Below, in pieces: positions 18,101 to 56,378 of a DNA stretch of 64,000 nt (the first letter of the stretch is position 1; each line of letters starts with the position of its first letter). Origin of the DNA: Holothuria scabra (Eukaryota; Echinodermata; Holothuroidea; Aspidochirotida; Holothuriidae); contig CM074185.1 in NCBI GenBank assembly GCA_037179385.1, forward strand, positions 51,401,000 through 51,464,999, read 5' to 3'. The position numbers were made by a program, and so were the translations under genes. Below the pieces are notes generated by a model, which saw only the letters and a list, made by a program, of their open reading frames with translations, had not been told where the DNA came from and did not search any database.

Positions 18101-21100
18101 AAGCACTTATTTGTTTGCACAGTAACCAGACACACACTTATCACTTAAAGAACAGGAAGTCTAGTTCACCTTACTGAAACAACACTTTCTGTTTAACAAC
18201 TGGTGTATCAGGTCCATTCATTGTAGAGCAGGGTTACTGCATAATGGTCTAAATTCATGTATTCTCTCCTCTTACCTTTGATCTTGTAATCCTTTCTTGT
18301 CTATACTTTTTTAAATGTCCTCCCGACCCTCTGGCAAAGGGCTGTTTGGGGAAACCAAAGTTTAAACTGCTTCCTGAATAAGCTATATGTCCACCAAAGG
18401 ACAACTCTTGACCAACTTTACAGCCCTCAGACCATTTACATAATTGGTCTGTCTTGTATGGCTCCATTCTGAACTGGCTGAAAAGAACAGCTACTACACA
18501 TGATCTCAGCCAAAAAGCCAAGAAGCGATCATACTTAACCGTTGTTTCTCCTGCCAATTTAACCCTCGTTTGTTCTTCAGAGGGCCTTATTGAGTTGATA
18601 TGAGATCTTAGCAATGGTGTTGGAGGGTAGTATCTGCATGACAATGCCTATGATTAGCATAATTAGTCAGTTTTCACATCAAATAGGCAAAATGTTATTG
18701 TTATGAATCCTTTGGTACCCTTGTTCTTAAGGGTTTTGTGTATTATTACAAAAACGTCTTGTTCACAAAGTTTTGAAGACGGATTGGAATCATTAGTTAA
18801 TCTCTCTCTTTTGAGACAGTTGTATGTATGGTATTGGGATTGTCTAAGTTTAATTAGATGTTAATGAGAATGTAAGGAAGACTTTACATATGTGGAAAAA
18901 TTGGTAAATTTCATAAACCAACTCAATGTACTCCTTTAAAAATTTACGCAATTCTGAAAAACACTTTGCATAATTTATTCAGGCTTTGAATTTTGAGGCA
19001 TGTGAGTGCCATGGCACAACATCACTCACCTCAAATCAATTTGAGAAGAGTGATTTTTTGCACAGCTAGGTGAAGTTTGAAGATCACATTAATCTAGTAG
19101 TGAAGTGTAACAACATAACTCTCCTACCAACTCCTGAATTTTCTGAGGAGGTTGATTTGCATCACACCTAGGAAATCTAAAATTGAACGCCTTTTATTAG
19201 AGTGAGTGATTCCAAGGTGATCTCATTTTGGGGCATAGAGAATATTGATGAAGGTCAAAAAATTGATTTAAATCAAATAAGTCAATTAAAATTGTGATTT
19301 TTGGTTTCGATGAAAAGAGAAACCTATGCATTCATGATGGCGTGTGTGTGTATGTATGTGTGTATGTGCGTGTGTATGTGTGTGTGTATGGGTGGGTGTG
19401 TGTATGTATGTATGTGTGTGTGTTTGTGACACTTTGATTGTTTACACGATATCTTGAGAAGGGAAGATCTGACAGTTCTCAAACTTGGTACACGGATACC
19501 CCATACTGAGAGGAAGAACCCTATTTATTTTGGTTGAGGTCAAAGGTCATCTGGGGTCACAGGGGGTCAAAAACCAAAATCCTTGTTTACACAATATCTC
19601 AAGACAGGAAACTTGGATTAATTTGAAACTTGATATGTTGATGCGTTATGATGTAAGGAAGAACCCTATTGATTTTGGTGGAGGTCAAAGGTCATTTGGG
19701 GTCACATGGGGTCAAACCCTGAAATCCTTGTTTACACGATATCTCATGGTAGAAACTTGGATCAATTTCATACGTGATATGTGGATGTGTTATGATGTAA
19801 GGAAGAACCCTATTGATTTTGGTGGTGGTCAAAGGTCATTTTGGGTCACATGGGGTCAAACCCTGAAATCCTTGTTTACACGATATCTCATGGTAGAAAA
19901 GTTGGATCAATTTCATACTTGATATGTTGATGCGTTATGATGTAAGGAAGAACCCTATTGATTTTGGTGGAAGTCAAAGGTCATTTGGGGTCACGTGGGG
20001 TCAAACCCCGAAATCCTTGTTTACACGATATCTCATGGTAGAAAACTTGGATCAATTTCAAACTTGACATGTTGATGCGTTAGGATGTCAGGAAGAACCC
20101 TATAGATTTTGGTGGAGGTCAAAGGTCACTTGGGGTCACATGGGGTCAAAACCCGAAATCCTTGTTTACACGATATCTCATGGTAGAAAACTTGGATTAA
20201 TTTCAAACTTGACATGTTGATGCATTAGGATGTCAGGAAGAACCCTATTGATTTTGGTGGAGGTCAAAGGTCACTTGGGGTCACTTGGGGTCAAAACCCG
20301 AAATCCTTGCTTACACGATATCTCATGGTAGAAAAGTTGGATTAATTTCAAACTTGACATGTTGATGCGTTAGCATGGAAGGAAGAACTCTTTTGATTTT
20401 GGTGGAGGTCAAAGGTCATTTGGGGTCACATGGGGTCAAACCCTGAAATCCTTGTTTACACGATATCTCATGGTCGAAAACTTGGATCAATTTCATACTT
20501 GATATGTGGATGTGTTATGATGTAAGGAAGAACCCTATTGATTTTGGTGGAGGTCAAAGTCCATTTGGGGTCACGTGGGGTCAAACCTGAAATCCTTGTT
20601 TACATGATACCTCATGGTAGAAAACTTGGATCAATTTCAAACTTGATATGTTGATGCGTTAGGATGTCAGGAAGAACCCTATTGATTTTGGTGGAGGTCA
20701 AAGGTCATTTGGGGTCACATGGGGTCAAACCCCGAAATCCTTGTTTACACGATATCTCATGGTAGGAAACTTGGATCAATTTCATACATGATATGTGGAT
20801 GTGTTATGATGTAAGGAAGAACCCTATTGATTTTGGTGGAGGTCAAAGTTCATTTGGGGTCACGTGGGGTCAAACCCGAAATCCTTGTTTACATGATATC
20901 TCATGGTAGAAACTTGGATCAATTTCAAACTTGATATGTTGATGCGTTAGGATGTCAGGAAGAACCCTATTGATTTTGGTGGAGGTCAAAGGTCATTTGG
21001 GGTCACATGGGGTCAAACCCTGAAATCCTTGTTTACATGATATCTCATGGTAGGAAACTTGGATCAATTTCATACTTGATATGTTGATGCGTTATGATGT

Positions 21101-24100
21101 AAGGAAGAACCCTATCGATTTTGGTGGAAGTCAAAGGTCATTTGGGGTCACGTGGGGTCAAACCCCGAAATCCTTGTTTACACGATATCTCATGGTAGAA
21201 AACTTGGATTAATTTCAAACTTAATATGTGGATGCGTTAGGATGTCAGGAAGAACCCTATTGATTTTGGTGGAGGTCAAAGGTCATTTGGGGTCACATGG
21301 GGTCAAACCCTGAAATCCTTGTTTACACGATATCTCATGGTAGGAAACTTGGATCAATTTCATACTTGATATGTGGATGTGTTATGATGTAAGGAAGAAC
21401 CCTATTGATTTTGGTGGAGGTCAAAGTTCATTTGGGGTCACGTGGGGTCAAACCCAAAATCCTTGTTTACATGATATCTCATGGTAGAATACTTGAATGA
21501 ATTTCAAACTTGATATGTTGATGCGTTAGGATGTCAGGAAGAACCCTATTGATTTTGGTGGAGGTCAAAGGTCACTTGGGGTCACATGGGGTCAAATCCC
21601 GAAATCCTTGTTTACACGATATCTCATGGTAGAAAACTTGGATCAATTTCATACTTGATATGTGGATGTGTTATGATGTAAGGAAGAACCCTATTGATTT
21701 TGGTGGAGGTCAAAATTCATTTGGGGTCACGTGGGGTCAAACCCCGAAATCCTTGTTTACACGATATCTCATGGTAGAAAACTTGGATCAATTTCATACT
21801 TGATATGTTGATGCGTTATGATGTAAGATAGAACCCGATGTATTTTCGTGGAGGTCAAAGGTCATTTGGGGTCACATTGGGTCAAAACCTGAAATCCTTG
21901 TTTACGTGATACATTATGGTAGGAAACTTGGATTCATTTCAATCTTGATAGGCTGATGCGTTATGATGTAAGAAAGAACCCAATTTATTTTTGTGAAGGT
22001 CAAAGGTCATTTGAGGTCACATGGGGTCAAAACCTGAAATCCTTGTTTACATGATTTATTATGGAAGGAAACTTGGATTCATTTCAATCTTGATAGGCTG
22101 ATGCGTTATGATGTAAGAAAGAACCCGATTTATTTTCGTGGAGGTCAAAGGTCATTTGGGGTCACACCCCGAAATCCTGGTTTACACTATATCTCAAGGC
22201 AGGAAACTTTGATTCATTTCAAACTTGATATGTTGATGTGTTATGATGTAAGAAATAACCCAATAAATTTTGGTGGAGGTCAAAGGTCATTTGGGGTCAC
22301 ATGGGGTCAAACTCCGAACTTCTTGTTTACACTATATCTCAAGGGAGGAAGCTTGGATTGATTTCAAACTTGATATGTTGATGGGTTATGATGGGAGGAA
22401 GAACCCTATTGATTTTGGTAGAGGTCAAAGGTCATTTGGGGACATAGGGGTCAAACTCAGAAAACCTTGTTTAGGATAGCTCAAGGTATGAAAGGTGGAT
22501 GGATTTCAAAATTAGTATGTAAATGAATTATTATGAGAAGATGGTCTGTATAAGGTTATTTTTTGTGGAGGTGAAAGGACATCTGGGGTCATGATCGGTC
22601 AAACTTTGAAAAACTTGTCAAAATGGGATATCTCAAGGTAGGAAACTTGGATGGATTTCCCAATTAGTATGTGGATGTGTTATGGTGAGTTGAAAGTACT
22701 GTACCTGTTGTTTTTGGTGGAGGTCAATGGTCATCTAGTATCACCTGGCATCAAACTCTGAAAACCTTGTTTGCAGAATATCTTAAGGCACAGTATGAAA
22801 GAAAAACCAGTCACTTACAGGTGGAGACAAAGGCTATTTTGGGTCACCAGTTGTTACAAGAAATGTAGCATTTTATTGAAAAGAGCATGTATGTATCATT
22901 GAAACCTCAATGCATTTTTGCATTCTGGTCTATCAGTTAAAATCAGGATTCTAATCCTGATAGTTGATGAGCATGATTTTTCAGGTTTTGTTTGAAGGAC
23001 ATTGATGATGTACTCTTGACAGTGGCAAAGTTTAATTTTTCTGCTGCTGCTGTTTTCTGCTGTGGCGTGGTGGAAAATGCTTTCATGATGATAGGCAGTA
23101 CCCAAATATCAATACTTGTGCTCAGAGTTGGCAGTTAACTATCTATACGTCTTTAATCTTGATTAATCTAGCGTTCTTGGGCTACATCCCTCGGTGTGGC
23201 AGGTGGAGACATGTTGGGATTGATGGTGTCTGCCAACCTTACCAGAATGGTCGCGAGTATGGCAGTCAGAGAAGCAGACATAATGAGGTTTATTGTGAAG
23301 AATGGTGAAAGTCCTCCACCTCATGGTAAGACAACCTCCTCCCCATCAGATTCAGAGATCCAGGGATACTGTCAACTTTTGAAAACACATTCTGTACTCT
23401 GGGTCTCTATAGGCTGGAAAAGTCATGGAGACCTTGGCGCTTAATAAAATTTTGTAAGACTTGGCCTGGTCATGTGACCATTTAAAAACATGTGCCAAGC
23501 AATTCACTATTTTCCCTTTGATGAATGGGATCATAATTGTACATATTTGGCAGTGAAATAGTTACAGAGAATTCATTCGGGTATGTTTCACTAAAAATGC
23601 AGTAACCAGTTGAAATAGTCATGGAAAACTTATGAGATCATAAATATTCATGATTTGGCAGTGAAATAGTCAGAGAGAATTTAGGTGGGTGTGTTGCACT
23701 TCAGTGCAGGGAGATTGTGAAATAGTTATGGAACAGTAATGAAAGTGTTTTGCTTTAATGGAACAGTAATGAAAATGTTTTGCTTTTACAGTGCAGGAAT
23801 CCTGTGCATACTAGGCAAAAAGGCAAAGTGGCCTAGTTAAATGGTCCACCCAAAGGTGCTTCAGTCTGGCGCACAACTGACCTCATTGACTGGGCAACTG
23901 ATAGTAGTGTGCATACTAGTATACATCAAATCTTTTGTTGATAACAAGTGTTCATGTCTGCTGTGCTGTGTAATTTCCCTTTCCGTCATGATTTCAAATA
24001 AATATTGTTTGACTCAACCGATTTATATCTTTGTTTTCATGTATCAGCCATTCCTTTACCAGCTCCTGAATCAAGTCCAACTTCTGCAAGGGATCCCGGA

Positions 24101-27100
24101 AGTAGTAACTCATCTGATACCATGGAAACAGCCAGGGAAAGTAGTCCAGAGGTAAACACGATTGTTAAAGCATTGGCAAATGATAGTGGATTTCTCAGGA
24201 TTAGGAAGTAGTACAAGTAATCACACAGAATACACATTTGAGCCTTAAATGACTAGTAATATAAAAAAAGGTCAGTCTCCATGCTTGTAAGAGAAAACCA
24301 TAAATAGAAGTCCAGGAGCTGAGCAATCTTGTTCATACCCATAGACAGAGTTACCAGTTTGGGTTTATCATTGTAGGAATTTTGTGTACCTGGGAGAGAG
24401 GGCACCCTCTGTCAAGATGAAACATTTTTGTTTTCCAGTAGTTCAAGTCAATGTAGTGCAACATTCTTTACTTTTGGCTTTTTAACAGAAAAATTCTTAA
24501 AGGTCATGTTCATATCTGTATCCTTCAGTGCAAGACCACTTTATTGGAAAACTGCATGGATCACAGACCAAAACTGTGCAGGGAGCACAGACCTTCATGC
24601 CCCACCCACCCCCACCACAATGGCTACATGCCTGCTCTTTCCAAACATTTAAATGACAGATTGATACACACAACAAAGACTGCCTGATGGGGTAAGAGGA
24701 GTGAAGATTGGTCTTGGTGGAGGTTGGGACTGAAGCCATCAGCCCCTTTACCTTTCTCGTCTAGAAATGTCACACCAGGTGCCTTCCAATCTAAAATTGC
24801 AGATGAGCATATCATATATAGTTCTTAAATGAAACTTTGTCTTGTGGAACTTTAGACTTCCAGTCACTGCATTTATTAATAATTGTAATTTGTTGGTAGG
24901 TGTACGTTTTCTCAAAGCACAAAGATTACTTACTTTTATCAGATATGTAAACACCTTTAACTGGGAAAAAATTGGACTCACATTTTTCTGCAATACTCGT
25001 CCAGGTGTTTACTTAGTTGAGCATATTATTAGAAGCAGTTCCCAAGCTTTACTTCCCTTCTGTTTGTTACAGGCAATGGAGGTGGACCATGGTGACTCTG
25101 TTGGTGCAACCAGTAGCAGTGCTGGTTCCTCTGCAACTCATGTGACACCAGCACCTACTCTTGGAGCCAGCTGGCAGGCAGTAGTACCTCAAGTAAGAAG
25201 AATATAGGGTTTTTTTATGGCTAATGTGTAATTCCATCGTGTCATGTGTCATAAAAAAAGTTCTACTATGCATGACTTACACTTATCAATTGAAAAGAAT
25301 CAAACAGTTGGAAATAAGTAGAATTGGTAACTGAAATTGAAACAATGGCGTGCATAATTGGACAGAACCAAAGTAAATGATCTTTTTTTTTTGTGACGTC
25401 TTTTTTTTTTTTTTGAAGTCACACATTCTCATATTGTATGATACTGATCAGTATTGGCTCTGAGCTGTATGATTTTGCTGCAAACGGTATATAATTGCCT
25501 TCAAGAAACCCCTGCACTGGTTTCTATAGACCCTAAGAATGTCCATCAAAAAAATTGTGGAGTTGAGAACTTTCCACACACAGGTATGTGGAAACATTTT
25601 TCACATTTGCCATTGAACATTGATAATAATAAAAAATCAAGGATCAGAAATGGATCTTCAAATCATGTGCATACATTTGAATATAACTCAGAAACCTTTG
25701 AATGGATAAAACTGATGGACCTCTGTCACACTGTAAGTTCAATTTTTTAATCTGCTTTCTTTAATAGGATTGGGTCCCAGTTATGACCCAGGACATCCAG
25801 AGACAAAGAAGACAGGCCCCTCAAGGCCCATTTAGTGATGCTTATCTACAAGGGCTACCACCCAAAAGAATCAAGGTAAATAAGTTGAGAATAATTTGTT
25901 CTATAAACACTCATCAATAACATGTCACACATAAATTGTATTGTAAAAGGACAGGTCAAGACTTGCTTTGTTTCACAGTTTAAACTTAAATGGAGTATTT
26001 TTTCAAGGCTCCCCTGTGTGCTGGGCAGCTGAGAGAGAAGTAATTTAATCTGATCACAGCAGGATTCAAAATCCTCTTCAGGAAAAGGTTAAATGGAATG
26101 CACCAGAAATGCTGCCACACAGTGGACAAACCACTGTCCTTTAGATGGCATTGAAATAGACATGTACACCATTCTTATGCCTTATTACATGTGTCACCAA
26201 AACAACCAGTACTAATAAACAAGTTTCCCCCAGCTCTTCCCTTCCCACCATTCTAGCCCTTGGAGAAAATTGTTCAGCTCATGACCGCTTGAATGGAAAA
26301 TTTAAGAAAACCAAATCGTAAATCAACACAGGCAACATATAACATAGTCATAACAGTAAGTAGCCAACCTGCATTTCCTGCAACCAAGCTGAAGCAACCA
26401 TGCATTGGTGCAATCAAATTAAAAAGAAGAAGGTGGGTAAAATCCTCCCCCCCTGCCCTTTTCATTTCTTTCCATAAAAATTAAAAGCATGTAAATATCT
26501 TAATTTCTTTAAAAAAAAAACACACTTTTTCAGCAATGTTTGAACTTACACAAATAAATGGCCTTTAAAACATGTCAAATTGCACCTTATAGGGGCCTTG
26601 AAGCAAGCTTTTGTCCCCCTGAACCTACTTGTAACTTAAAACTGGGACAGAGTCAATTTGGACATGAGGGTGAGTGGTGATAAATCCCATCCCCCCTTTT
26701 TTTTTGTTTCTGACAGAAGCCCTTGTAATAGTTTGTGTACCTACAGGACATGAATTTAGTTTCTGCAGCTTGCTGAAGTAACTGTGACCTGAGAATTGCA
26801 CATGTCGATTTATTGTATGTGAACCTTCACAACATGGACTAGTCCTTTGCAGCTCACTGAAAGAGCTGTGACCTGAGAATGTCATGTGGTACTTTGCAGT
26901 GTGTGCACATTCAGAGCATGGATTCAGTCCCTGCAGCTTGCTGAAGTAGCTGTGACCTAAGAATTTTACATGGAATTTAACAGTATGTTCATTTTTCATA
27001 GCATGGGTACAGTCCCTGCAGCGTCCTAAAGTAGCTGCGACCTAAGAATTGTACATGGTACTTTACAGTATGTTCACTTTCATAGCGTGAATTCATTCCC

Positions 27101-30100
27101 TGCAGCTTGCTGAAGTAACTGTGACCTAAGAATTGTACATGATACTTTACAAGTATGTTCACTTTTGTTGTATGGATTCAGTCCCTGCAGCTTGCTGAAA
27201 TAGCTGTGACCTAAGAATTGCACATTGTATTTTACGGTATGTGCACTTTCTTATTGAATTTATTCAGTCCTTGCAGCCATTTAAGGAAGCTTGCAGCATG
27301 CTTAAATGGCAGTGGACTGAGAATTGCACATGTGATTTTATAATATGTGCACCTTCAGGGCAAGGATTCTGTCCCTGCAACTTATTGCAATAGCTGTGGC
27401 CTAAGAATTGTACATGGCACCTAAAAAGGAGAGCTCTCGAGTTATAAATTTTGTTTAGTTTTGTTTGGTGTATTTGTTTCCCTACATCATTGCAAAGTAC
27501 TTCATTTACACACAGTGAAATCTTTACATTATGCAACAATGGTGTAGATGGAAGGAAAACTTAAAACCTCAAGGGCTTGTTGAGAATTGTACTACCCCTT
27601 ACTTTCAAAACAAAGTTAACTGGTGTAACAGCATCGGAGCAAAAGAAAGCATGAAGAAAAGAATTACTGAAACATGAGGAGTAAAGACTTGGAAAAGAAG
27701 GCTGGAATCCCCCTCCCCAAGATGGTCTACAGCCCCAGTCCCTGATCACATGACCATGTTCTTTTACTTCTCTGACATTGAAGTTTTCTTTTGTGTTGAT
27801 CCTCTGTTCATTTTGCCTTCATTTGTATGCCCCCATCATTACATTTGTATGTATACTCTGAATAAAAGGCGTGTGCATTTTTTTCCTGACAGTGGAGTCA
27901 TACAAAATGTTTCGGAAATAAAGAAATTTGTTCATTATTCTGTAATGAATCTCAAACAGCTGAACCTTTATTTGTGTCAACTGCCTTTATCTGGAGAATA
28001 AATTTCAGTCTAAACCATTTTCAAGAAGTAAAATTCTTTAATAGCAATAAATACTAAAAATGCTTGTATTTTAAAGGGAATATCCACATTATACCACAAT
28101 TTGAATTACTAAACCTTGGCATCAGAAGTCCTTAAAGGTAAAAAGCAGTCCCCCCAAACTTATTTTGAAGAAAAAGCTAATTAGCACAATTTTTGTCTTA
28201 TTTCTCTTCAAAGTATCTTTCATCATATTTTATTATAACTTCAATATTGCATATTCAAAGTAAACCAAGCAAATATTTCTGGTAAATTTGACCTTTGATT
28301 AGGAAAAATATTGTCACATGACTCCCAACAGCCAATCATGAAACTGGACAGTCTACTACACTACTTCAATTTGGGATGACTGCTCTTGCCCATTAATGAC
28401 TCTTCAGAGTTTCATCATCACTTAAATCTCAGGATAGTTGCAGTACATTCATTCAAATTGCTTTTGGTTTAATGTTTATGTGTTCAGAAATATCTTGAAG
28501 GGGGGTTATAAACTCTGGTGCAGAACCAATATCCAATGTTACTTCAAGTGTTACACACAAACAAATTGCCACACAAATACAACATGCGTGGCTCTGTTTG
28601 TACATGTTTGACTGAAAAACATTACATAGAATAATTTAAATTAGTACTATGTGTTGGACTGTTGTTTTTGTTCCAGCAAGACAATAATAAGCTTAAAGGT
28701 CAAGAGCAGTTGCCCACAACTTATTGTGTTTAAAATGTTACAAAAAAGAGTACAAAGAAAATAGCTTAGACACTATCCAACAGTTCAGTCTTAATCATAA
28801 ACCCCAGCAATAGAAAGAAGAGACATGGATGTTGCATCATTTGAAATGTTGAAAGTTTGGGTGAACAAATTATTCTTGAGCAACAAACAACTGAATTCCT
28901 ATTGGCGGGAAACTCATTTCTTGAAAAGAAGGTGTAATCATACTGACTTATTTTTGATAACCTGTCACCTTGTGTCAATAAATGTTAGTTTTAAAAGGAT
29001 GAATTTTTCTTGCAAAACAAATGTAATAATTACACATCACAATTTTCATCTTGTTTCTTTCTCTACTAAGTATTTTTCATCATATTTTATGAATTCAATA
29101 TTGCATATCCAAGGAAACCAAGTAGTTACTTCTAGAAAATTTCACTTTTGAAGAGTAAAAATATCACATGGTTTTCAACAGCCAATTAAGAAATAGGACA
29201 GTCTACTACACTACTTCAAGTTGGGGTGACTGCTCTTGCCCTTTAAAGCATCTGTACTTTTGAGAGGTTGTATTTGCCAGCATTTTCTTTGTGAGTCGTT
29301 ATAATAAAGAATCATGGACCAATTAATATGGTTAGCAAAAAGTCTCTAAAGTGAAACCTCAGGTTTTGGAAGGAAATTCACCTTTGAAGAGAAAATTGAC
29401 TTTTTGAATATTACATACATTTGAAAAATTGTGAAAGAACTGCTACTTGTTTAGTGAATATCAATTGTAAGCTGCACCTTCTTGCTTGGGACAGTGGTGA
29501 GTCAGATGTTGGTTATATTCGTTTGAGTTGTGATGCAGGGGGTGAGTCAAAGTTCAGCATATTTGGCATCAAAGAAATCTTGCAGGCCTGGCATTCGTGC
29601 ATCAAAATCTACAGGAAATCCACATCAAAGTGTATGAATTACTGGGTCAACTGTGTGATGGAGGGGTGCATGAATGTATAAAAATGTTTGATAACCCCAG
29701 GTAACCTGTCGATTGGGGATTGGACCCTCTGAGGATCAAACCCTAGCTGTACTCTATCCATTGTGATTTCTTGAATTCTTGAATGTCTAGAAGTTGAACC
29801 TGTTATATACTGTACATTCGTGTTTGGTACTAAAGAATATTCTAGGGTCAGTTTCACATGGTCACAAATAACAGGGTCTCAAATAAAAGGAAATAATTTT
29901 ATATCCCAAGCCCTTCAAATCTCACACCTATAGCTTGTTAATAACTTGAGATATTACTGTTTATCTTTGCCAAAAACACACTTCTGTTAAAAATCTTGAA
30001 GTAATTAATTTGAGCTTGAAACTTCACTCCCAGGAAACCTTATGTAATATTCGTTTGAGGTTGCCTTGAAAACTTTGTGAGCACTAAGGTTGCAGCTTTA

Positions 30101-39100: not shown

Positions 39101-41173
39101 ACATCTCCCTGACTCATGACTTGAGTTGCTAGGCTGTGCTGATTTCATCTGGTTACTTGTATTTTCCCAGTTAACTGCCTCCACAGCAGCTGTCAAAGTG
39201 TTCCAGAATTTTGTTGACAGCATTCAATAAAATTTTTTAAATGTGCCAGAACTGTGTGGTAGGGGAAGAAAATTTTTTTTTGTTTGTCGCTTTATTTTTT
39301 TATATTTGTCTCTGTCATAGTGTGTAGTTGAGTGTGCTTCTATCGGTCCATGCGTGACATATGTCTTCAATTAAATTTAGATTGTTTATTTTTAAATCTC
39401 TCAAACATTATAAAACAACAAAGACATATGGAGCAGTAGACTCGCAAAATATAAGAGGTGGAGAGCTTTTATCCATAAATGCATGTAATGAAGCCCAGGG
39501 ATCTTAAAATAATAGGATCTTTCTGCTGTTATGGCCGATGGGGGATAACTTATAACCTTAGACAGAGTTTTTAAGGTACAGATGATTGGGTACTGGCCCA
39601 GGGGGTCATGAGGATTACCAGGCATTTTCAAGTTCACACAATCATTTTATTTCTACATGCAGCTTTACCACCATGGCGATGCATCTCTACTGGGATTTAA
39701 TGGTTTCAGTATTGAACAGGTGGCTTGATTTTTGGCCCCGAGGGTGGGAAAGTGGGTAGAAATTTTGATTATATTACTCAATATAGGTCATAACAGATCA
39801 AACAGATATTTTTGCAATATGGGAGAAAATATTTGTCAAAAAAAGGAATAAAATTGCCCATATCCTGTGGAATGCATAAATCCTGTACATCAGTTGTTGT
39901 TTAAGAATGCAGAAACAATGGCAGTTTTGTTGGGGTCTAGGCTAACAAGGTGGGTTCGGGGAATGTCATTTAGGCTGTAAAGCAGTGACTGAGGTTGGTC
40001 CTTTCTGACAATTTTGTCACTGAATGTATACTAACCCTGCAGTGAATACTTTGTATCATGCCGGGTAAGCCTGTGGCAATGAAGGTTGAATGAATACTAC
40101 TGTATGTCTTGAACTTCAGTATAAAAATAAATATTACTGCAATATATGATCACAACTAAAGCTTCAGACCTTGAGTTTAAGATTTTCCAGGTGTGCTATA
40201 AATCACTTTTCTCAGGAAAATAAGGAGTGCAATAGGTGTGCTGTTTTAATAGGATAATATGAGCTCCCATTCTTCATCTAGGTATGTAAAAATTCACACT
40301 CCTCAGAGAAATTTGAGGAGAATAATCCAATGTGCTATTGCACTAAATACATCCCAAAATTCAAGCCTGAACCTTCAAGGTAAATCTTGTCTTAACATAA
40401 AATAATATCACATTGCTTTGGAATAATGATTCAAATGTCGCATTTGGAAAAGTGAACCTCCAGAGAAGGGACCATTTTGAGTATGATTCAAATGTCATAT
40501 GTGGAACAATGTCCCTTCAAAGTAATGGCCCTTTGGAGCAATGATCGTACCACTAACAACATTCTGGCAAGGTCATTATAATGATTGGTTAGTTTGGCAT
40601 ATTGTGTTATTGGTGTACCAATTTTGTATGTATAAAGCAGTAGAAAAGGGACAATTTATTCAGAGGCTTCTGATTCTTGTGTGACCTTCTGGAGGATGGA
40701 TCCTGTTACTTTTATCTTGATTAAGTTCTAGCATGTAGACATTTGGTGGATTAAAACCAATGTCAGTCTGGAAACTGCAAATTCAACCAGAATACTAGTC
40801 AGGGTAATGGGAGCTTTGGTTGCAACCCCAATCAGTGTTTATTAGGACAGCTAAAAGCCTGATAATGAAGGTTCCTTCTCAATTTGTTTTCTTTTTTTTG
40901 TTTTGTTTTTGTCAGCTTGAACAAGATAAGAGATCACCAGCTACAGAGCCAAGTTCTTCTTTTGTAAGAGAAACTTTGCGTAGAGCTGTGGAGAATTCTG
41001 GTTTACGACCTTTGAACTCTGTAGATAGCCTGTTACAAGAGGCAGAAAGTAGCAGTGTCCTTGAGTCTGCTTGCGAGGAGCAGATGAAGAGTGCCCTCAA
41101 GCAGAGATTGAGAACAGATCCAGATTACGACCCTCAGCGATTTCCAAATACAGACAAGTACCTCCAGAAGTAA
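1..41173 (+). CDS. BAG6: BAG6 (BAT3/Scythe) co-chaperone, 3' part of gene, 18 exons
   Basis: BAG6 is a nuclear/cytosolic holdase. With GET4 and UBL4A it captures exposed hydrophobic segments, passing tail-anchored proteins to the GET/TRC pathway and mislocalised proteins to the proteasome (established for the family). Exons: 1-115, 1922-2095, 3135-3344, 4476-4626, 7983-8243, 10109-10243, 11133-11437, 12513-12612, 13367-13537, 13768-13937, 15211-15264, 15480-15582, 17082-17212, 23172-23325, 24048-24151, 25073-25192, 25768-25875, 40916-41173. All have AG/GT borders and compatible phases, giving 940 codons plus stop. Identification rests mainly on the C-terminus: a WVPVMTQDIQ block, SDAYLQGLPPKRIK with a basic nuclear-localisation-like cluster, and a final DPDYDPQRFPN segment, as in vertebrate BAG6. 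The N-terminal ubiquitin-like domain is absent because it lies upstream of base 1. Long Ser/Thr/Gln/Pro-rich linkers fit the family. No frameshift or internal stop was seen. Confidence 0.93.
193..400 (+). repeat. Dispersed repeat, copy 1 (partner at 7720-7940)
   Basis: Shares with 7720-7940 the order GAGCTAGATRAAA, GTTAAGTT, CAAGTT...AGTTCAAG, CCTCCCTTT, ACGACAGGCAAGGAAT and CATATTCTA. This is probably an old SINE-like or LINE-tail repeat. I do not assign a family. Confidence 0.5.
541..1740. other. Intron, no gene seen
   Basis: AT-rich intron sequence with an A-rich tract (about 991-1024). An open stretch at 1407-1676 has no splice context or recognisable protein. Nothing else supported. Confidence 0.6.
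1740..1815 (-). repeat. tRNA-derived SINE head
   Basis: On the minus strand, an A-box-like TGGCTAGGTATATAGC (rc of 1787-1802) is followed by a B-box-like GGTTTAAATCTCC (rc of 1748-1760) at tRNA-like spacing. No acceptor-stem pairing was seen, so a SINE head is more likely than a working tRNA. Confidence 0.4.
1922..2095 (+). CDS. BAG6: BAG6 exon b
   Basis: 58 codons, phase 0 at both ends. Acceptor follows a pyrimidine tract ending CCCTCTCAG; donor GTAAGA. Encodes a helix (QNVCCQVMHYISHIYHSLSD) followed by a Pro-rich stretch (RPPRVAAVPNVPSPIGPFPV). Continues the conserved domain of the previous exon. Confidence 0.9.
2096..3134. other. Intron, nothing recognised
   Basis: AT-rich, unstructured sequence between BAG6 exons b and c. 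Short open frames have no codon or domain support. Confidence 0.6.
3135..3344 (+). CDS. BAG6: BAG6 exon c, Ser/Thr-rich linker
   Basis: 70 codons, phase 0 both ends, acceptor GACGCAG, donor GTAATT. After FVGSPITVSRGQG it is almost wholly Ser, Thr, Gly and Gln, including a run of seven Ser. Low-complexity disordered linker, poorly conserved in sequence but normal for BAG6. Confidence 0.85.
3345..4475. other. Intron, nothing recognised
   Basis: Between BAG6 exons c and d. A- and T-runs only; no repeat or gene identified. Confidence 0.6.
4476..4626 (+). CDS. BAG6: BAG6 exon d, Pro-rich
   Basis: 50 codons plus one base (phase 1 exit), acceptor CTATAG, donor GTATGT. Encodes TTRPQPSAPTPSGPRPG followed by a Gly/Arg/Pro segment ending PPDPNRTVHIR. 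Proline-rich linker of the protein. The reading frame is fixed by both neighbours. Confidence 0.85.
4993..6665. mobile_element. About 1.7 kb non-coding element with palindromic ends
   Basis: The left end (GTAACTACCAGGGTT, then a GGTTTTGGAC inverted repeat at 5009-5029) and the right end (GTCCAAAAC...CTAACCCTAGTAAC at 6640-6665) are inverted matches. A perfect 22-bp palindrome sits at 6564-6585 and a near-perfect one at 6612-6633. Many TCCAAAAC/GGTTTAAACC words cluster at both ends. No transposase frame is visible. Likely a non-autonomous DNA transposon, class unknown. Confidence 0.55.
6666..7719. other. Intron, nothing recognised
   Basis: Low-complexity AT-rich DNA with a short GGTTAGGG-type run at about 6970. 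No gene or repeat pair found. Confidence 0.55.
7720..7940 (+). repeat. Dispersed repeat, copy 2 (partner at 193-400)
   Basis: Second copy of the repeat at 193-400, with the core TTACAACAGGCAGGGAATAC. It ends about 40 bp before BAG6 exon e. Confidence 0.5.
7983..8243 (+). CDS. BAG6: BAG6 exon e
   Basis: Phase 1 in and out, 261 bp, acceptor GTTCCCAG, donor GTGAGG. Encodes HIEIRQLP, a helix MMQNIAQAIMQQIQQVG, then a Ser/Thr/Gln-rich tail. The short Met/Gln helix in a disordered context resembles a hydrophobic substrate- or partner-binding patch (inference). Confidence 0.88.
8244..10108. other. Intron, nothing recognised
   Basis: 1.9 kb between BAG6 exons e and f. A G-rich tract at about 9391-9408 is the only feature. 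Open frames here are short and lack support. Confidence 0.6.
10109..10243 (+). CDS. BAG6: BAG6 exon f
   Basis: 135 bp, phase 1 in and out, acceptor CTATCTCACAG, donor GTAAAA. Encodes a basic, Val/Arg-rich stretch (PRTVRVQMTQQGQVPSSVRV) and RLPGMRVQAQTRIRT. Uninterrupted frame with both flanking exons. Confidence 0.85.
10244..11132. other. Intron, nothing recognised
   Basis: Between BAG6 exons f and g. The open frame at 10598-10810 has no splice context or homology that I can see. Confidence 0.55.
11133..11437 (+). CDS. BAG6: BAG6 exon g, largest internal exon here
   Basis: 305 bp, phase 1 in and 0 out, acceptor CTATTTTCAG, donor GTAAAG. Begins with a Ser/Thr-rich linker, then the conserved-looking MNPLIVGMWDPFLPCQSRH block, and ends in a Gly/Gln/Arg-rich segment. 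Confidence 0.88.
11543..11800. mobile_element. piggyBac-like MITE with TTAA target duplication
   Basis: 258 bp bounded by TTAA (11543-11546 and 11797-11800). The internal inverted ends CCCTTTACCGT (11547-11557) and ACGGTAAAGGG (11786-11796) match perfectly. TTAA plus a CCC start is the piggyBac signature (established). The interior is much GC-richer than its surroundings and holds a perfect GGGTCC-AAAA-GGACCC hairpin at 11765-11780. No coding capacity. Confidence 0.75.
12091..12451. mobile_element. TTAA-type MITE family A, copy 1
   Basis: The left end TTGGCCTAATCCTCTCACCC and the right end GAGAGGGTTAGCCCTTTAA are inverted matches. Related copies are at 36766-37003, 52854-53159 and (partial) 16680-16905. 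Lies in the intron before exon h. Confidence 0.55.
12513..12612 (+). CDS. BAG6: BAG6 exon h
   Basis: 100 bp, phase 0 in and 1 out, acceptor CCTTTACAG. The donor is GTTTGT, weaker than the other donors. Encodes MPSAGNFAEMIGGVMNALTS followed by QGMLSPESMPTTT, a Met-rich amphipathic helix. Confidence 0.85.
12613..13366. other. Intron with short TA repeat
   Basis: Only a small AT dinucleotide run (about 12946-12962) and a purine run near 13145 are notable. No gene seen. Confidence 0.55.
13367..13537 (+). CDS. BAG6: BAG6 exon i
   Basis: 171 bp, phase 1 in and out, acceptor TATGACAG, donor GTAAAA. Encodes a Ser/Gly linker then helices LSPENILFHMFNRMAE and NPETLQELFRGITQ. Part of the conserved central helical region of BAG6. 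Confidence 0.88.
13768..13937 (+). CDS. BAG6: BAG6 exon j
   Basis: 170 bp, phase 1 in and 0 out, acceptor GTTTTACAG, donor GTAAGA. Encodes helices FLNEMAGALSRVLRVNDVSQ and LRPTIIEFINNRILRGG. The strong helical character and lack of low complexity mark a folded region. Confidence 0.9.
13938..14939. other. Intron, nothing recognised
   Basis: Between BAG6 exons j and k. No repeat pair or coding signal identified. Confidence 0.55.
14940..15066. mobile_element. Short MITE-like inverted-repeat element
   Basis: GGGGCAAAACA at 14940-14950 is mirrored by TTGTTTTGCCCC at 15055-15066. The 127-bp non-coding body suggests a small MITE. The target duplication is not clear. Confidence 0.4.
15211..15264 (+). 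CDS. BAG6: BAG6 exon k, 54-bp exon
   Basis: 18 codons (NSCRRVVTESRAELAELL), phase 0 both ends, acceptor CATTAAG, donor GTAAGT. Too short for ordinary ORF detection. Supported because it keeps frame between exons j and l and has clean borders. Confidence 0.75.
15480..15582 (+). CDS. BAG6: BAG6 exon l
   Basis: 103 bp, phase 0 in and 1 out, acceptor CCTATACAG, donor GTAAGT. Encodes EGYSTHHNIDSIATFSYFLE followed by EVLTEIVTKSVGDH, a long helix with hydrophobic spacing. Confidence 0.85.
15622..15644. repeat. 11-bp-arm palindrome
   Basis: CTTTAAGGGAT, one central T, then ATCCCTTAAAG: perfect arms of 11 bp, 40 bases after the exon l donor. Confidence 0.6.
15660..16679. other. Intron, nothing recognised
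   Basis: AT-rich intron DNA between exons l and m with T and A homopolymers. No gene seen. Confidence 0.55.
16680..16905. repeat. MITE family A, decayed partial copy
   Basis: Shares the internal word GTGAGTATACAAG and the downstream TATCAAACACTC and CATGCAGTGT order with the copies at 36766-37003 and 52854-53159. The termini are decayed. Confidence 0.4.
17003..17047. repeat. Short tandem duplication
   Basis: Two adjacent copies of about 21 bp containing CTGTCCTATCATACCTGTAT, 35 bp before exon m. Confidence 0.6.
17082..17212 (+). CDS. BAG6: BAG6 exon m
   Basis: 131 bp, phase 1 in and 0 out, acceptor TTCATAG, donor GTAAGT. Encodes a helix around MVEHIQQSIHQGLRLLMYMY and GGENQMRAFIFERM. The other two frames of this exon contain stops, so the phase assignment is secure. 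Confidence 0.88.
17258..17775. mobile_element. Head-to-head pair of MITEs sharing a palindromic junction
   Basis: The outer ends TATAGACAAATCC (17258-17270) and GGATTTGTCTATA (about 17763-17775) enclose two inverted copies of about 255 bp. They meet at the perfect 20-bp palindrome 17506-17525. A third copy lies at 31715-31962. A TA duplication would suit a Tc1/mariner-type element (inference). Confidence 0.6.
17776..18254. other. Intron, nothing recognised
   Basis: No gene or repeat partner identified in this part of the exon m-n intron. Confidence 0.5.
18400..18529 (-). pseudogene. U2 snRNA-like sequence, degenerate 3' half
   Basis: Read on the minus strand from 18529, the first 50 bases match the 5' end of metazoan U2 snRNA at 44 positions by my alignment with the known human sequence. 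The match includes the 5' ATCGCTTCT, the stem-I region and the branch-site-pairing GTAGTA (intact). Downstream, stem II is not recognisable. A CAATTATGTAAATGG resembles the sequence before the Sm site, but the Sm site itself is lost. It is most likely a retro-copied or decayed U2 copy. The 129-codon open frame across it (18255-18644) is incidental. Confidence 0.6.
18650..19340. other. Intron, nothing recognised
   Basis: AT-rich intron DNA between the U2-like copy and the satellite. No exon could be justified here. Confidence 0.5.
19341..19428. repeat. GT/TATG microsatellite
   Basis: Imperfect (TG)n with TATG variants directly preceding the 145-bp satellite. Confidence 0.9.
19430..22790 (+). 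repeat. 145-bp satellite, about 22 units, carrying nuclear-receptor-like half-sites
   Basis: Conserved landmarks (AGGTCA-A-AGGTCA, then GGGTCA-CATG-GGGTCA, then CCTTGTTTACACGATATCTCA) recur about every 145 bp: 19537, 19682, 19826, 19971, 20116, 20261, 20406 and so on. The last units (after about 22480) are diverged. Roughly 14 units keep a perfect DR1 site. The period is not a multiple of three, so open frames across it are accidental. It lies in the 6 kb intron between BAG6 exons m and n. Confidence 0.95.
22870..23171. other. Intron, nothing recognised
   Basis: Sequence between the satellite's decayed end and exon n. It contains only a short GATTCTAATCC-type inverted word. Confidence 0.5.
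23172..23325 (+). CDS. BAG6: BAG6 exon n (acceptor chosen by phase)
   Basis: Encodes GGDMLGLMVSANLTRMVASM, AVREADIMRFIVKNGESPPP and the start of the next codon. The donor GTAAGA at 23326 is clear. The preceding exon ends in phase 0. The TAG at 23169-23171 gives a phase-0 start and adds the residues RSWATSLGVA. The acceptor at 23202 (GTGGCAG) would need a phase-1 predecessor and so an unseen exon. I prefer 23172, with moderate certainty for the 5' border only. Confidence 0.75.
23550..23790. repeat. Short local tandem repeats
   Basis: Two diverged copies with TTTGGCAGTGAAATAGT and AGAGAATT about 105 bp apart are followed by a duplicated unit of about 31 bp (ATGGAACAGTAATGAAARTG). Confidence 0.6.
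24048..24151 (+). CDS. BAG6: BAG6 exon o
   Basis: 104 bp, phase 1 in and 0 out, acceptor GTATCAG, donor GTAAAC. Encodes AIPLPAPESSPTSARDPGSS then NSSDTMETARESSPE, a Ser/Pro/Glu-rich acidic linker preceding the C-terminal region. Confidence 0.85.
24152..25072. other. Intron, nothing recognised
   Basis: Between BAG6 exons o and p. Overlapping open frames on both strands around 24428-24993 have no supporting structure. Confidence 0.55.
25073..25192 (+). CDS. BAG6: BAG6 exon p
   Basis: 40 codons, phase 0 both ends, acceptor TTTGTTACAG, donor GTAAGA. Starts with the acidic AMEVDHGDSVG stretch and ends LGASWQAVVPQ, just before the conserved C-terminal block. The family has a similar acidic Met-Glu region here. 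Confidence 0.87.
25193..25767. other. Intron, nothing recognised
   Basis: Between BAG6 exons p and q. Two T-runs (25382-25414); no gene seen. Confidence 0.55.
25768..25875 (+). CDS. BAG6: BAG6 exon q, conserved C-terminal block with NLS-like cluster
   Basis: 36 codons, phase 0 both ends. Encodes DWVPVMTQDIQRQRRQ and then PFSDAYLQGLPPKRIK. This corresponds to the vertebrate BAG6 segment bearing the nuclear-localisation signal and GET4-binding region (established for the family). It is the clearest single piece of evidence for the gene's identity. Confidence 0.93.
26010..26130 (+). repeat. Possible tRNA-derived SINE fragment
   Basis: GGGCAGCTGAGAGAG resembles an A box and GGATTCAAAATCC a B box, spaced as in a tRNA. 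The match is weak. Confidence 0.3.
26740..27420. repeat. 85-bp minisatellite, about 8 diverged units
   Basis: CTGCAGCTTGCTGAAGTA and CTGTGACCTAAGAATTGYAC recur about every 85 bp (near 26765, 26848, 26933, 27018, 27103 and 27188). The last units are degenerate. Minus-strand open frames across it (26625-26999, 27264-27539) are by-products of the repeat. Confidence 0.85.
27430..28132. other. Intron, nothing recognised
   Basis: Part of the 15 kb last intron. No gene or repeat partner found. Confidence 0.5.
28133..28396. mobile_element. TTAA-type MITE family B, copy 1
   Basis: TTAA at both ends. The inverted ends read TTAAAGGTAAAAAGCAGTCC and, from the other side, TTAATGGGCAAGAGCAGTCA. Internal marker ATTGTCACATGACTC...CAGCCAATCATGAAA. 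Confidence 0.65.
28693..29246. mobile_element. TTAA-type MITE family B, copy 2 (longer)
   Basis: Begins TTAAAGGTCAAGAGCAGTTG and ends TGACTGCTCTTGCCCTTTAA, nearly perfect inverted ends. The right half aligns with copy 1, including TCTACTACACTACTTCAA. 554 bp, about twice copy 1. Confidence 0.6.
29247..31714. other. Intron, with one possible tRNA-like SINE scrap
   Basis: No gene seen. About 29690-29790 on the minus strand shows an A-box-like TGGATAGAGTAC and a B-box-like GGGTCCAATCC, suggesting a SINE head (weak). A CCAAGATGGCTGCC word occurs near 31430. Confidence 0.45.
31715..31962. mobile_element. Third copy of the 17258-17775 MITE family
   Basis: Matches the right half of the inverted pair: GATTGTGATGGTCTGA, CTTACCTGTTCCATGGATGG, GAGGATTTGAAATTCACGTA, GGCTGATGGACC, and a decayed GGATCTTCTATA end. 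Confidence 0.6.
31963..34054. other. Intron, mostly nothing recognised
   Basis: A partial family B MITE lies at about 32102-32165 (TCACATGACTCTCAAGAGCC). Otherwise unstructured intron DNA. Confidence 0.5.
34055..34290 (+). repeat. SINE family S, copy 1
   Basis: Shares the body CTACTGCC...CTTGGTGCTYAKC...GGAAAACAAGCCAGTRAGC...AAACTCTATCTAAC with copies at 48276-48435 (minus), 49445-49714 and 54190-55330. A decayed B box (AGTTTAGACTCCTGC) is present. Confidence 0.6.
34490..34800 (+). repeat. Second tRNA-derived SINE type
   Basis: The A-box-like TGGACCCAGTGGTTGTGG and the B box AGTTCGAATCCTGCT are at tRNA-like spacing (about 34507-34562), with an unrelated 3' body. Open frames on both strands here are not genes. 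Confidence 0.45.
34801..36765. other. Intron, nothing recognised
   Basis: Part of the last BAG6 intron. No repeat partner or gene identified. Confidence 0.5.
36766..37003. mobile_element. TTAA-type MITE family A, copy 2
   Basis: Left GACCTGATCCTCTCACCCC and right GGGGTGAGAGGTATGGCCCT are inverted matches. Internal GTGAGTATACAAGACCCC and GAGCTGAGCCAATTGAAAAT are shared with 52854-53159. Confidence 0.65.
37326..37750. mobile_element. MITE with perfect 56-bp terminal inverted repeats
   Basis: Bases 37326-37381 are the exact reverse complement of 37695-37750, starting AGCCGTGTTCCCATTTGATC. The 425-bp body is studded with GATC words such as GTAGATCAA, GGTGGATC and TGGGAACRC. It is flanked by TTT on both sides, so a 3-bp duplication (PIF/Harbinger-like) is possible but unproven. 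No coding capacity. Confidence 0.8.
37751..39439. other. Intron, nothing recognised
   Basis: Contains G-runs (about 38021-38032) and a C-run (about 38516-38527). No gene identified. Confidence 0.5.
39440..39640 (-). pseudogene. Possible hAT transposase C-terminal remnant
   Basis: The minus-strand translation contains YPPSAITAERSYYF preceded by Leu-rich sequence, resembling the hAT dimerisation-domain motif (T/S-A-x-x-ERS-F). The usual Lys/Arg-rich continuation is degraded. A short fragment only. This could also be a chance match. Confidence 0.35.
39641..40915. other. Intron, nothing recognised
   Basis: Two diverged copies of a GATTCAAATGTC unit of about 60 bp lie near 40427-40500. Nothing else seen before the last exon. 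Confidence 0.5.
40916..41173 (+). CDS. BAG6: BAG6 exon r, terminal exon with BAG-like end and stop
   Basis: 85 codons plus TAA, phase 0 in, after a long pyrimidine/T-rich acceptor tract ending GTCAG. Encodes SSSFVRETLRRAVENSGLRP, a central helical stretch, and LKQRLRTDPDYDPQRFPN near the end. In BAG6 this BAG-like module binds UBL4A. It is 15 kb from the previous exon, but the junction reads continuously against the family's layout. Confidence 0.93.
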   Translation, partial: LEQDKRSPATEPSSSFVRETLRRAVENSGLRPLNSVDSLLQEAESSSVLESACEEQMKSALKQRLRTDPDYDPQRFPNTDKYLQK

Positions 41174-54189: not shown

Positions 54190-55324
54190 GCGACTGCATG
54201 GTCAAATAGTTAGAGCATTAGACATGCGCAGTGGGGAGGAAGGGAGGTCGCGAGTTCGATTCCTGGGTTAGGGTTTGTCGCAAAGGCTTTAAAAATGGAA
54301 TCTACTGCCACAGGCGTATGAAGCGGGGAGGTCGCTCCCAGTGAAAAATGAGGGGGCGGAAGTATGTTTTCACCCCCACTTCTTCTCGGGTCAGAAAATT
54401 CCTTTTTTTTTTTTTCATTTTTCCAATTTCCCCAAAAGACGAAATTTCCGGCCCGCTTAGCGCAGAATGCAATGTACATTACTTCTCGCTCATATATCAG
54501 TTTGGTTAAATTTTCCGATCTCTGGAAATGACAAAATCGGATATTTACTATAAATGACACCACCCCACCAAGAGACACCGGCAGCTTTATTGATAGTTTT
54601 GTAAACTGTCTTTCATAGAATTCCAAATTTCCTTCGATGAGAGCTCTTGATTTTGAAACATTTTGTCCAAAAAGGACAACGAAGTTTGGGAAACTCTTGA
54701 AATGTCATCGGAGAGTGTCAATTCGTAGTCCTTAGAAAACAGTATGTAGCAACAACGATTCAGTCGTCGTGCAGTTTGGTTTCGTCGAACGGCTCTTTGT
54801 CAGAGAGTCGGGAGGTTTTTAGAAAAAGCACTCATTCTCAGATTTGCCACCAATATATGAAGGAAGTGCACATTATTCTGTAATCCCCCAACTCTTTAAA
54901 TTGCCTAACAGGAAACCCCAGAATCCAAAGCTACTTGTAATATAAGCTCCATATCTACATATATTTGCGCGCCACAAATTACGTTCCTAACATAGTGAGT
55001 AGCGTTCACACGTAAGAAAAATTCAGATTTTTTTATCTTAAAAAAATTCGTTCCTGCTCGTAGAAAAAGCGAAAAATCTAGCGTAAAAATATACCTTTTG
55101 GTCAATGGGGTAAGGTGACGTTCATGGTCCAAAACTGTTCCGCCACCCACTCTCATATTGCTTCCTACGCCACTGCCTACTGCCGTTGTGCTTGGTGCTC
55201 AGCATAAGCAATGGTGTAGGGAAAACAAGCCAGTGAGCCACATCTGCATTAAAAAAGGCCATGTGCGGCTCGACTTTAACCGATTGGTTGGGAACTGAGC
55301 AGTTAAACTCCCATTCACTACCTG

Positions 55325-55330
<6 letters not shown>
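54190..55330 (+). repeat. SINE family S, copy 4, split by a hAT-like insertion
   Basis: The tRNA-like head (A-box-like region near 54200, B box GAGTTCGATTCC near 54252) and body start (GAATCTACTGCC) are on the left. The body resumes at 55177 (CTACTGCCGTTGTGCTTGGT) and runs to the tail CCTGACTGACTGACTGACG, which merges into the tetranucleotide array. Confidence 0.75.
54310..55176. mobile_element. hAT-like element nested in the SINE
   Basis: 867 bp between direct copies of CTACTGCC (54302-54309 and 55177-55184). The ends CAGGCGTATGAAGC and GCTTCCTACGCCACTG are inverted with a 2-base gap, matching the hAT CAGTGGCGTAG type. The minus-strand open frame at 54210-54626 crosses the left boundary and is not a gene. 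Confidence 0.7.

Positions 55331-56378
<1,048 letters not shown>

Follow-up and report, generated by a model that had tools for sequence, protein, structure and literature searches.

The tandem array at the centre of the window, the 64,000-nucleotide stretch of Holothuria scabra contig CM074185.1 analysed here, is best read as the tandem core of a non-autonomous Helentron-type element (HINE) inserted into a host gene; we put the probability of this reading at roughly 0.78. The definition of a HINE includes an autonomous partner with Rep/helicase and the same ends, and the anatomy of the copies suggests that they spread with Helentron machinery acting in trans. An earlier note on this DNA had described a satellite in a BAG6 intron. 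The ends of the element recur at other loci, which contradicts a stand-alone satellite and points instead to the core of a dispersed HINE-type element that is not special to BAG6. The coordinates proposed there, 19430..22790, do span the array, but the whole element is larger (19298-22929).

Table 1. Features of the window, in window coordinates.
Feature	Position	Strand	Basis or detail
Whole mobile element, probable non-autonomous Helentron/HINE type, ends TTTTTGG...CTGGT	19298..22929	+	Ends common to other loci
5' subterminal inverted repeat GGTTTCGATGA	19303..19313	+	Complementary to 3' copy
Short inverted repeat GAAACC, complementary to start of 5' subterminal inverted repeat	19319..19324	+	Stem 6, loop 10 at 19303-19324
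GT-rich microsatellite at inner edge of left flank	19342..19428	+	TRF
Central tandem array: 23 units, each ~145 bp, and one degenerate partial unit	19434..22860 (end approximate)	+	TRF, unit comparison
Homogeneous array core; 3' edge decayed	19578-21896		
Four-half-site block, example unit 2	19682..19714	+	AGGTCA 19682, AGGTCA 19689, GGGTCA 19699, GGGTCA 19709
3' subterminal inverted repeat TCATTGAAACC	22896..22906	+	Complementary to 5' copy
3' palindrome AATGCATTTTTGCATT	22909..22924	+	Stem 6, loop 4; follows 3' subterminal inverted repeat
BAG6 C-terminal (BAG-similar) domain exon of host gene	40829..41170	+	Pfam PF20960, PDB 7ru9/4x86

The left (19298-19341) and right (22861-22929) flanks match loci L014, L015, L019 and L020 at 83-100%. 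The left-end match begins at 19298 in three of the four loci, with L020 extending 11 bp beyond, and the right-end match stops at 22929 in three of the four, with L014 extending 3 bp beyond. A palindrome at 22942-22961, considered as the 3' hairpin of the element, was dropped and placed outside it because the copies end near 22929. Within these boundaries, the subterminal inverted repeats (subTIRs) GGTTTCGATGA and TCATTGAAACC are complementary at 10 of 11 positions in the window and at 11 of 11 in L019 and L020. The inverted repeat beside the 5' subTIR is 6 bp in the window, one under the oyster range of 7-12 (at a distance of 1-12 bp from the subTIR), and 11 bp in a sister subfamily (type 2). 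On its left side, this subfamily carries subTIR GATTCCTTGCC, the 11-bp inverted repeat GGCAAGGAATC, a microsatellite and then the array; on its right side, the array is followed by 3' subTIR GGCAAGGAATC and palindrome GCCTTTTGGC. A microsatellite lies between left flank and array in five copies (the window included) and in 12 sister-subfamily copies, and the left-flank order, microsatellite included, recurs in H. leucospilota P0061 and P0103. The peptide following the array in the metagenome protein P0071 overlaps the 3' subTIR region. Judged by eye, the insertion flanks of five copies fit a TT/T-rich site without target-site duplication.

Taken alone, the inverted repeats of the flanks are not above chance (2 found; null values 0-14), and among 348 random pairs an inverted repeat occurred in 30, an 8-bp palindrome in 10 and both in 2. 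For this reason, further copies of the element were sought. The family appears to comprise at least two end-subfamilies with one repeat unit in common.

This architecture resembles that of Cg_HINE, the non-autonomous Helentrons with satellite-like cores of Crassostrea gigas, as described in the available part of PMC7492417. In both, a 5' subTIR, a complementary inverted repeat, a microsatellite, the array, a 3' subTIR and a palindrome follow one another, a likeness drawn from the order of parts. As here, the Cg_HINE array units are mostly 140-180 bp and fixed in orientation, and copies lie within genes; the Cg_HINE insertion site is T-rich without visible duplication, as may also hold for the present family. 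The window array is longer, at 23 units against an average of up to 5, and two end types with different subTIRs on one unit family are also unlike Cg_HINE as described there. The bivalve Pearl elements and Drosophila DINE-1, likened by description and not by sequence, are likewise Helitron/Helentron-related with tandem-repeat cores in that account. In the available text of PMC7492417, 'GGTCA' was not found as the start of a word; the consensus sequences stand in a figure.

The family is both abundant and dispersed. The 17-mer formed by a direct repeat of two half-sites with a 1-bp spacer (DR1) and TTTG has 47,390 exact occurrences in the 1.19-Gb genome, against 0 for the reversed control, an abundance on which a BAG6-specific array was rejected. 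Among 25 arrays (the window included), compared on the unit's strand and upstream against upstream, the upstream flank is common to another array in 21, the downstream flank in 21 and both in 18, so that the units stand in fixed orientation to their flanks. The commonest unit spacings in these arrays are about 137-158 bp, with shorter fragments too. In 33,661 array bases, 707 half-sites are sense and 5 antisense, separated mostly by spacers of 4 (262) and 1 (129). The loci L009-L028 were picked by the DR1+TTTG seed, and subfamilies without DR1 could therefore not show up; L001-L008, which overlap L009, were left out. Of 262 nhmmer matches, 70 covered less than 90% of the unit and were removed, leaving 192 full units.

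Related units also occur in the sea cucumber H. leucospilota, on 21 contigs over 40 Mb. Relatives' proteins were found through shared words, and pieces overlapping or on the minus strand were dropped before counts; 'hypothetical proteins' of H. leucospilota make up 108 of 120 among the matches listed. When the array-masked window was compared with 126 relatives' proteins, with low-complexity rows removed before ranking, the two best matches were the element flanks: P0014 on the left (E = 2e-11, 19267-19389) and P0071 on the right (11 of 11 residues, E = 0.007, 22898-22930). P0011 ranked sixth (E = 0.014, 19298-19354). Flank matches in relatives' proteins preceded the examination of genome DNA. 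No relative turned up in the viral and prokaryotic collections, which were scanned both by pattern and by protein.

The array likely lies inside an intron of BAG6. Exon 40829-41170 matches Bag6_BAGS (PF20960) in Pfam (E = 5.3e-5, above cut-off) and BAG6 chains 7ru9/4x86 in the PDB (E = 9.3e-11), which supports the host gene named in the earlier note; the exons 5' of the array were called by eye and lack a Pfam match. The assignment is held at likely because a Pfam search with candidate exons at 1927, 13722 and 23172 gave no match and a protein search with the composite BAG6 protein was empty.

Within the array, TRF calls a repeat of period 145 and 20.5 copies at 19511-22473. The tandem, homogenised array has a dimer periodicity, and units 22-24, at its decaying 3' edge, keep 48-73% identity to other units. 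The homogeneous core, with its dimer periodicity, and the decayed edge suggest that array length changes both ways through unequal exchange. Every unit had been said to encode four half-sites with spacers of 1, 4 and 4. The motif is real and this spacing, a 33-bp block, is kept in 21 of 23 units, but all four RGGTCA are intact at these spacers in 12. The count of 14 units with a perfect DR1 was also right, though out of 23 and not 22. All 14 perfect DR1 copies in the window (AGGTCAAAGGTCA, AGGTCA-A-AGGTCA) are on the + strand and within the array, and GGTCA occurs 80 times on the + strand and 0 times on the - strand of 19430-22790. At other loci, which were seed-selected, 103 of 170 full units carry a perfect DR1. 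When one consensus unit was shuffled 100,000 times with its dinucleotides preserved, DR1 appeared 8 times and four or more RGGTCA on the same strand 0 times, which rules out the motif as mere coincidence.

Comparison of half-sites with other bases, the check proposed at the outset, finds the half-sites less variable in the window, in the 170 other-locus units and in the relatives. Among window units, parsimony changes per column are 0.62 at half-sites and 1.57 in the rest; 1 of 143 circular shifts is as low, as are 0 of 20,000 base-stratified permutations, a test that ignores neighbour correlation. Variation in the window is 0.035 at half-sites, 0.117 in the spacers between them and 0.103 in the rest. 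The minor-allele fraction is 0.088 at half-sites against 0.229 elsewhere across the 192 full units, and 0.110 against 0.234, with 3 of 142 shifts, in the 92 units lacking the DR1+TTTG seed. Within relatives, the majority fraction is 0.922 at half-sites and 0.773 in the rest; consensus changes against relatives affect 0 of 24 half-site columns and 22 of 121 others, a weak test (Fisher p 0.025; 7 of 144 shifts). Each of the three subfamily consensuses retains the GGTCA of half-site 3, against differences at 32-40 of 119 other columns. Receptors tolerate R (A/G) at the first base of a half-site, and at half-site 3 this base is G in 108 and A in 57 of the 170 units from other loci; this change is weak evidence because 14 of the 57 variable columns have A and G as their two alleles.

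The chances slightly favour a HINE without receptor function, in which the GGTCA block arose from 7-bp and 10-bp internal duplication in an ancestral unit. Consistent with this proposal, the half-sites lie at offsets 0, 7, 17 and 27, the bases beside them are nearly the same (TGGGGTCA occurs twice), and TRF also reports a 10-bp GGTCACTTGG repeat. TTTTGGTGG and GATATCTC, boxes that are not receptor sites, equal the half-sites in conservation among relatives. The 33-bp block is gap-free in 152 of 170 units, the same as the median of other 33-bp stretches, and its indel rate in relatives is 0.025 against 0.026 elsewhere; because indels do not spare the block, the receptor step is given less weight and the functionless alternative more. 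Half-site 4 is dispensable: it is missing in type 2, where 0 of 39 units carry it, ranks 40 among 143 6-mers and begins with C in 38 of 170 units. Half-site 2 is not conserved in the homogeneous core, where 105 of 145 6-mers are equal or better, and reads AGTTCA, AGTCCA or AATTCA in four type-B units. The apparent conservation would then reflect shared ancestry, chance rate variation or another constraint on the element, such as replication, nicking, transcription by another factor or DNA shape. Standing against such an account are the window spacers, which vary like the rest of the unit when the half-sites do not, and the persistence of half-site 3 across the diverged consensuses.

Judged from its sequence, the consensus DR1 is a candidate site that HNF4/RXR/COUP-TF-type receptors should bind. 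In the putative receptor block of the unit, DR1 is followed by a spacer-4 half-site in all three subfamily consensuses and by another in some. That the constraint is due to host DR1-class receptors (HNF4, RXR or COUP-TF type) binding the units is a tentative proposal, though the leading one for its mechanism. Receptor-bound units could serve the element as promoter, enhancer or open chromatin in cells copying it, and consequences for host genes would be secondary to this use. It is more doubtful still that the Helentron-type core acts as a phased receptor-binding array, with element expression or copying dependent on host DR1 receptors and consensus DR1/DR4 sites seeded in tens of thousands.

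Co-option as a host regulatory array or receptor sink, with copies regulating BAG6 or buffering receptor levels, is improbable: the very many consensus sites (47,390 seeds) and the Alu-HNF4 sink discussed in the available part of PMC3252374 would suit it, but the family is abundant and dispersed, nothing marks the window copy as special, and the 3' edge of that copy is decaying. The role of receptor sink, enhancer or receptor-guided chromatin suggested earlier for the array is conjectural. A classical satellite or simple gene-local tandem duplication with a coincidental motif would account for a tandem, homogenised array with dimer periodicity, but can be dismissed in view of the shared ends, the two-sided flank matches in 18 of 25 arrays, the relatives on many H. 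leucospilota contigs and the rarity of DR1 in shuffled units.

Alu is a SINE and not a tandem-core DNA element. Alu repeats carry HNF4 sites and DR2/RAR sites and, like the window element, are mobile elements by which nuclear-receptor direct repeats spread across a genome, according to the available parts of PMC3252374 and PMC1785376. In contrast to Alu, every copy here combines consensus DR1 with spacer-4 half-sites in a tandem array. A known 32-bp module shares with the array units closely packed hexads, possibly of viral or mobile origin; it is single, gene-specific and of tested function, whereas here the units are many and the sites predicted. By title, the matches listed for Helitron with nuclear receptor included no Helentron, and those for Helentron with sea cucumber none on the element family; the H. 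glaberrima genome preprint (PMC13228809), searched by word, contained neither 'satellite' nor 'nuclear receptor'. A literature search combining satellite DNA with nuclear-receptor terms gave no paper on such an array by title, and for AGGTCAAAGGTCA as text, judging by titles, the HNF4/Alu paper alone among the matches listed dealt with a repeat. Three fish papers print AGGTCAAAGGTCA as part of PCR primers. From a repeat with GGTCAAAGGTCA, which we take to be widespread in fish and invertebrates, no claim is drawn; short pieces of it were not found in a literature search.

To our knowledge, there is no agreement on what the tandem cores of Helentron-type elements do; if such a core retained its receptor half-sites as its other bases drifted, the purpose of these repeats could be tested directly. 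Even without receptor binding, the family needs masking in motif scans and ChIP peak calls of such genomes, and it affects gene annotation, as with the H. leucospilota 'hypothetical proteins' among the matches listed. If the receptor proposal is true, a mobile element has scattered consensus hormone-receptor sites by tens of thousands, an invertebrate parallel to Alu, and its spread could rewire or titrate receptor signalling genome-wide.

The array of ~145-bp units is the core of a dispersed mobile element with the ends of a non-autonomous Helentron (HINE). Comparison loci were 20 stretches of contig 1, chosen among the earliest-listed sites of the 17-mer AGGTCAAAGGTCATTTG. Four of them (L014, L015, L019 and L020) have arrays bordered by the flanks seen in the window, left from 19298 and right to 22929, at 83-100%. 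On the left, the match begins at 19298 in three and extends 11 bp further in the remaining one; on the right, it stops at 22929 in three and extends 3 bp further in the remaining one. Among 25 arrays including that of the window, 21 have an upstream flank in common with another array, 21 a downstream flank and 18 both, and a single array (L023_0) shares neither. Relatives' proteins matched both flanks before any genome DNA was compared: with the array masked, the matches at the flanks were P0014 (E 2e-11), P0071 (E 0.007, 11/11 residues) and P0011 (E 0.014).

The inverted repeat by itself would have been too little to identify the element. The parts at the ends compared are ordered: 5' subterminal inverted repeat (subTIR), short inverted repeat, GT microsatellite, array, 3' subTIR, palindrome, and terminal CTGGT. 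This order agrees with that of the oyster HINEs (PMC7492417), and the element is classed as probably HINE-type; the short inverted repeat of the window copy, at 6 bp, falls one below the oyster range of 7-12 bp, and the flanks of five copies are by eye compatible with a T-rich insertion site. A sister subfamily (type 2) has distinct subTIRs, GATTCCTTGCC / GGCAAGGAATC, but shares the plan and unit family of the window type. A third set of array flanks, differing from both, is shared by L019, L025 and L026.

Features of the window
Feature	Position	Description
Element	19298-22929	Probably HINE-type, array as core
Array	19434 to ~22860	+ strand; 23 units, all 143-150 bp long except one of 132 bp, plus a partial, degenerate one
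E-box units	19866-21746	CACGTG replaces CACATG at the last spacer in 6/23 units (4, 8, 10, 12, 14, 16), mostly alternating with the CACATG type in a dimer-like pattern
Palindrome	22942-22961	ATCAGGATTCTAATCCTGAT, 9-bp stem; begins 13 bp past the element 3' end
Tandem repeat	26749-27277	Separate; period 84/169, ~6 units; carries in-step TGACCT/TGACCC, antisense half-sites, at 26785, 26869, 26953, 27122, 27207
Inverted pair	18978-19182 / 40176-40371	~68% identity; may be a further old mobile element next to the insertion
Exon	40829-41170	Matches to Pfam Bag6_BAGS and, in PDB, to BAG6 chains
Simple repeats	55322-56377	~1 kb, tetranucleotide type (CTGA, CTAA, ACTT)
Reading frames	61146-62088	Two; by eye resemble LINE reverse transcriptase end; no Pfam match

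The host gene appears BAG6-like from its sequence, with exons 5' of the array called by eye only. Translating a spurious frame across the array gave 14 protein matches, eight of them from the sea cucumber Holothuria leucospilota. A profile search scoring 7,987 candidates returned 315 matches; this species supplied 108 of the best 120, and among the 120 listed its matches lie on at least 21 contigs longer than 40 Mb, plus smaller contigs. The matches make a sea cucumber, or another echinoderm, the probable host, possibly H. leucospilota itself with a different unit subfamily. Many of its 'hypothetical proteins' among P0001-P0126 appear to be frames through the repeat, an annotation artefact.

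The element core carries strand-biased half-sites (RGGTCA): 707 sense and 5 antisense over 33,661 bases within arrays, and 45 and 11 over 74,658 bases outside. Across the 1.192-Gb genome (31 contigs, the window on contig 7), exact copies of the 17-mer number 24,163 forward and 23,227 reverse; simple arithmetic gives a chance expectation of ~0.1, and the reversed 17-mer has no exact match in the whole genome. The window holds 14 copies of the perfect DR1 (half-sites at spacer 1), AGGTCAAAGGTCA, always on the + strand and within the array. Shuffling the consensus unit 100,000 times produced DR1 in 8 cases and four half-sites in none. The motif reported in the earlier note is thus real, but its presence in every unit is not: four RGGTCA at 1-4-4 spacing occur in 12/23 units. 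Among the 21 units with intact spacing, 12 have DR1, or 15 if AGTTCA and AGTCCA are admitted as half-sites; according to PMC10315846, AGTCCA is the HNF4-specific variant and the HNF4 crystal-structure site contains AGTTCA. The 1-4-4 spacing, kept in 21/23 window units, is a subfamily trait rather than family-wide, since the consensus sequences of all three unit subfamilies have only DR1 and one spacer-4 half-site in common. One unit subfamily (L009, L011, L016, L017, L024, L028) adds a consensus fifth half-site after the fourth, AGGTCA-AA-AGGTCA, at spacer 2; this spacing occurs 27 times over all arrays.

Half-sites are less variable than the rest of the unit in the window, at other loci and in relatives, the comparison the earlier note had proposed. 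In window units their minor-allele fraction is 0.035 vs 0.103 elsewhere (0/143 circular shifts as low), with spacers at 0.117; in the homogeneous core alone it is 0.023 vs 0.055 (5/144). On the unit tree, half-sites show 0.62 vs 1.57 changes per column (1/143 shifts), and a base-stratified permutation, which ignores neighbour correlation, gave 0/20,000. Full-length units of the window and 19 other loci, 192 kept from 262 hits, give fractions of 0.088 vs 0.229 (4/142). Excluding the window and one seed unit per locus leaves 151 units at 0.093 vs 0.231 (4/142), and 92 units without the seed give 0.110 vs 0.234 (3/142). GGTCA of half-site 3, outside the seed, is retained in all three unit-subfamily comparisons, where 32-40 of 119 other columns differ. 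The relatives' sample (219 aligned pieces of translated units from 126 proteins, most of them of H. leucospilota) was found through shared words, which favours conserved parts; here, agreement with the window consensus is 0.901 vs 0.577 (1/144 shifts) and the majority fraction 0.922 vs 0.773 (0/144). The inferred relatives' consensus departs at 0/24 half-site and 22/121 other bases (p 0.025, 7/144 shifts).

Several observations count against this constraint: TTTTGGTGG and GATATCTC are as conserved in relatives as the half-sites, and indels do not spare the 33-bp half-site block. The block is gap-free in 152/170 units, the median of other 33-bp stretches, and in relatives indels per codon step are 0.025 vs 0.026. 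Half-site 4 is intact in 93/170 units, all four half-sites in 0/39 type-2 units, and half-site 2 is not conserved above background in the window core. Little weight attaches to the A/G change at half-site 3, since the same pair accounts for 14/57 variable columns.

A working scheme would involve: spread of the element by Helentron proteins supplied in trans; turnover of the array via unequal exchange, as suggested by higher unit identity at even (92.6-93.5%) than at odd lags (91.3-91.8%); and, tentatively (probability about 0.35), binding of units by DR1-class host receptors, by which the element would be transcribed or its chromatin opened. HNF4, RXR and COUP-TF have consensus DR1 as a known site (PMC10315846), so receptor binding of the predicted sites would be expected in vitro. 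The nearest precedent for receptor sites carried by a mobile element is Alu (PMC3252374, PMC1785376); among the literature matches listed, judged by title and with most subscription papers outside scope, none concerned a receptor array in a Helentron or satellite. Receptor binding, if true, would account for half-sites conserved next to variable spacers.
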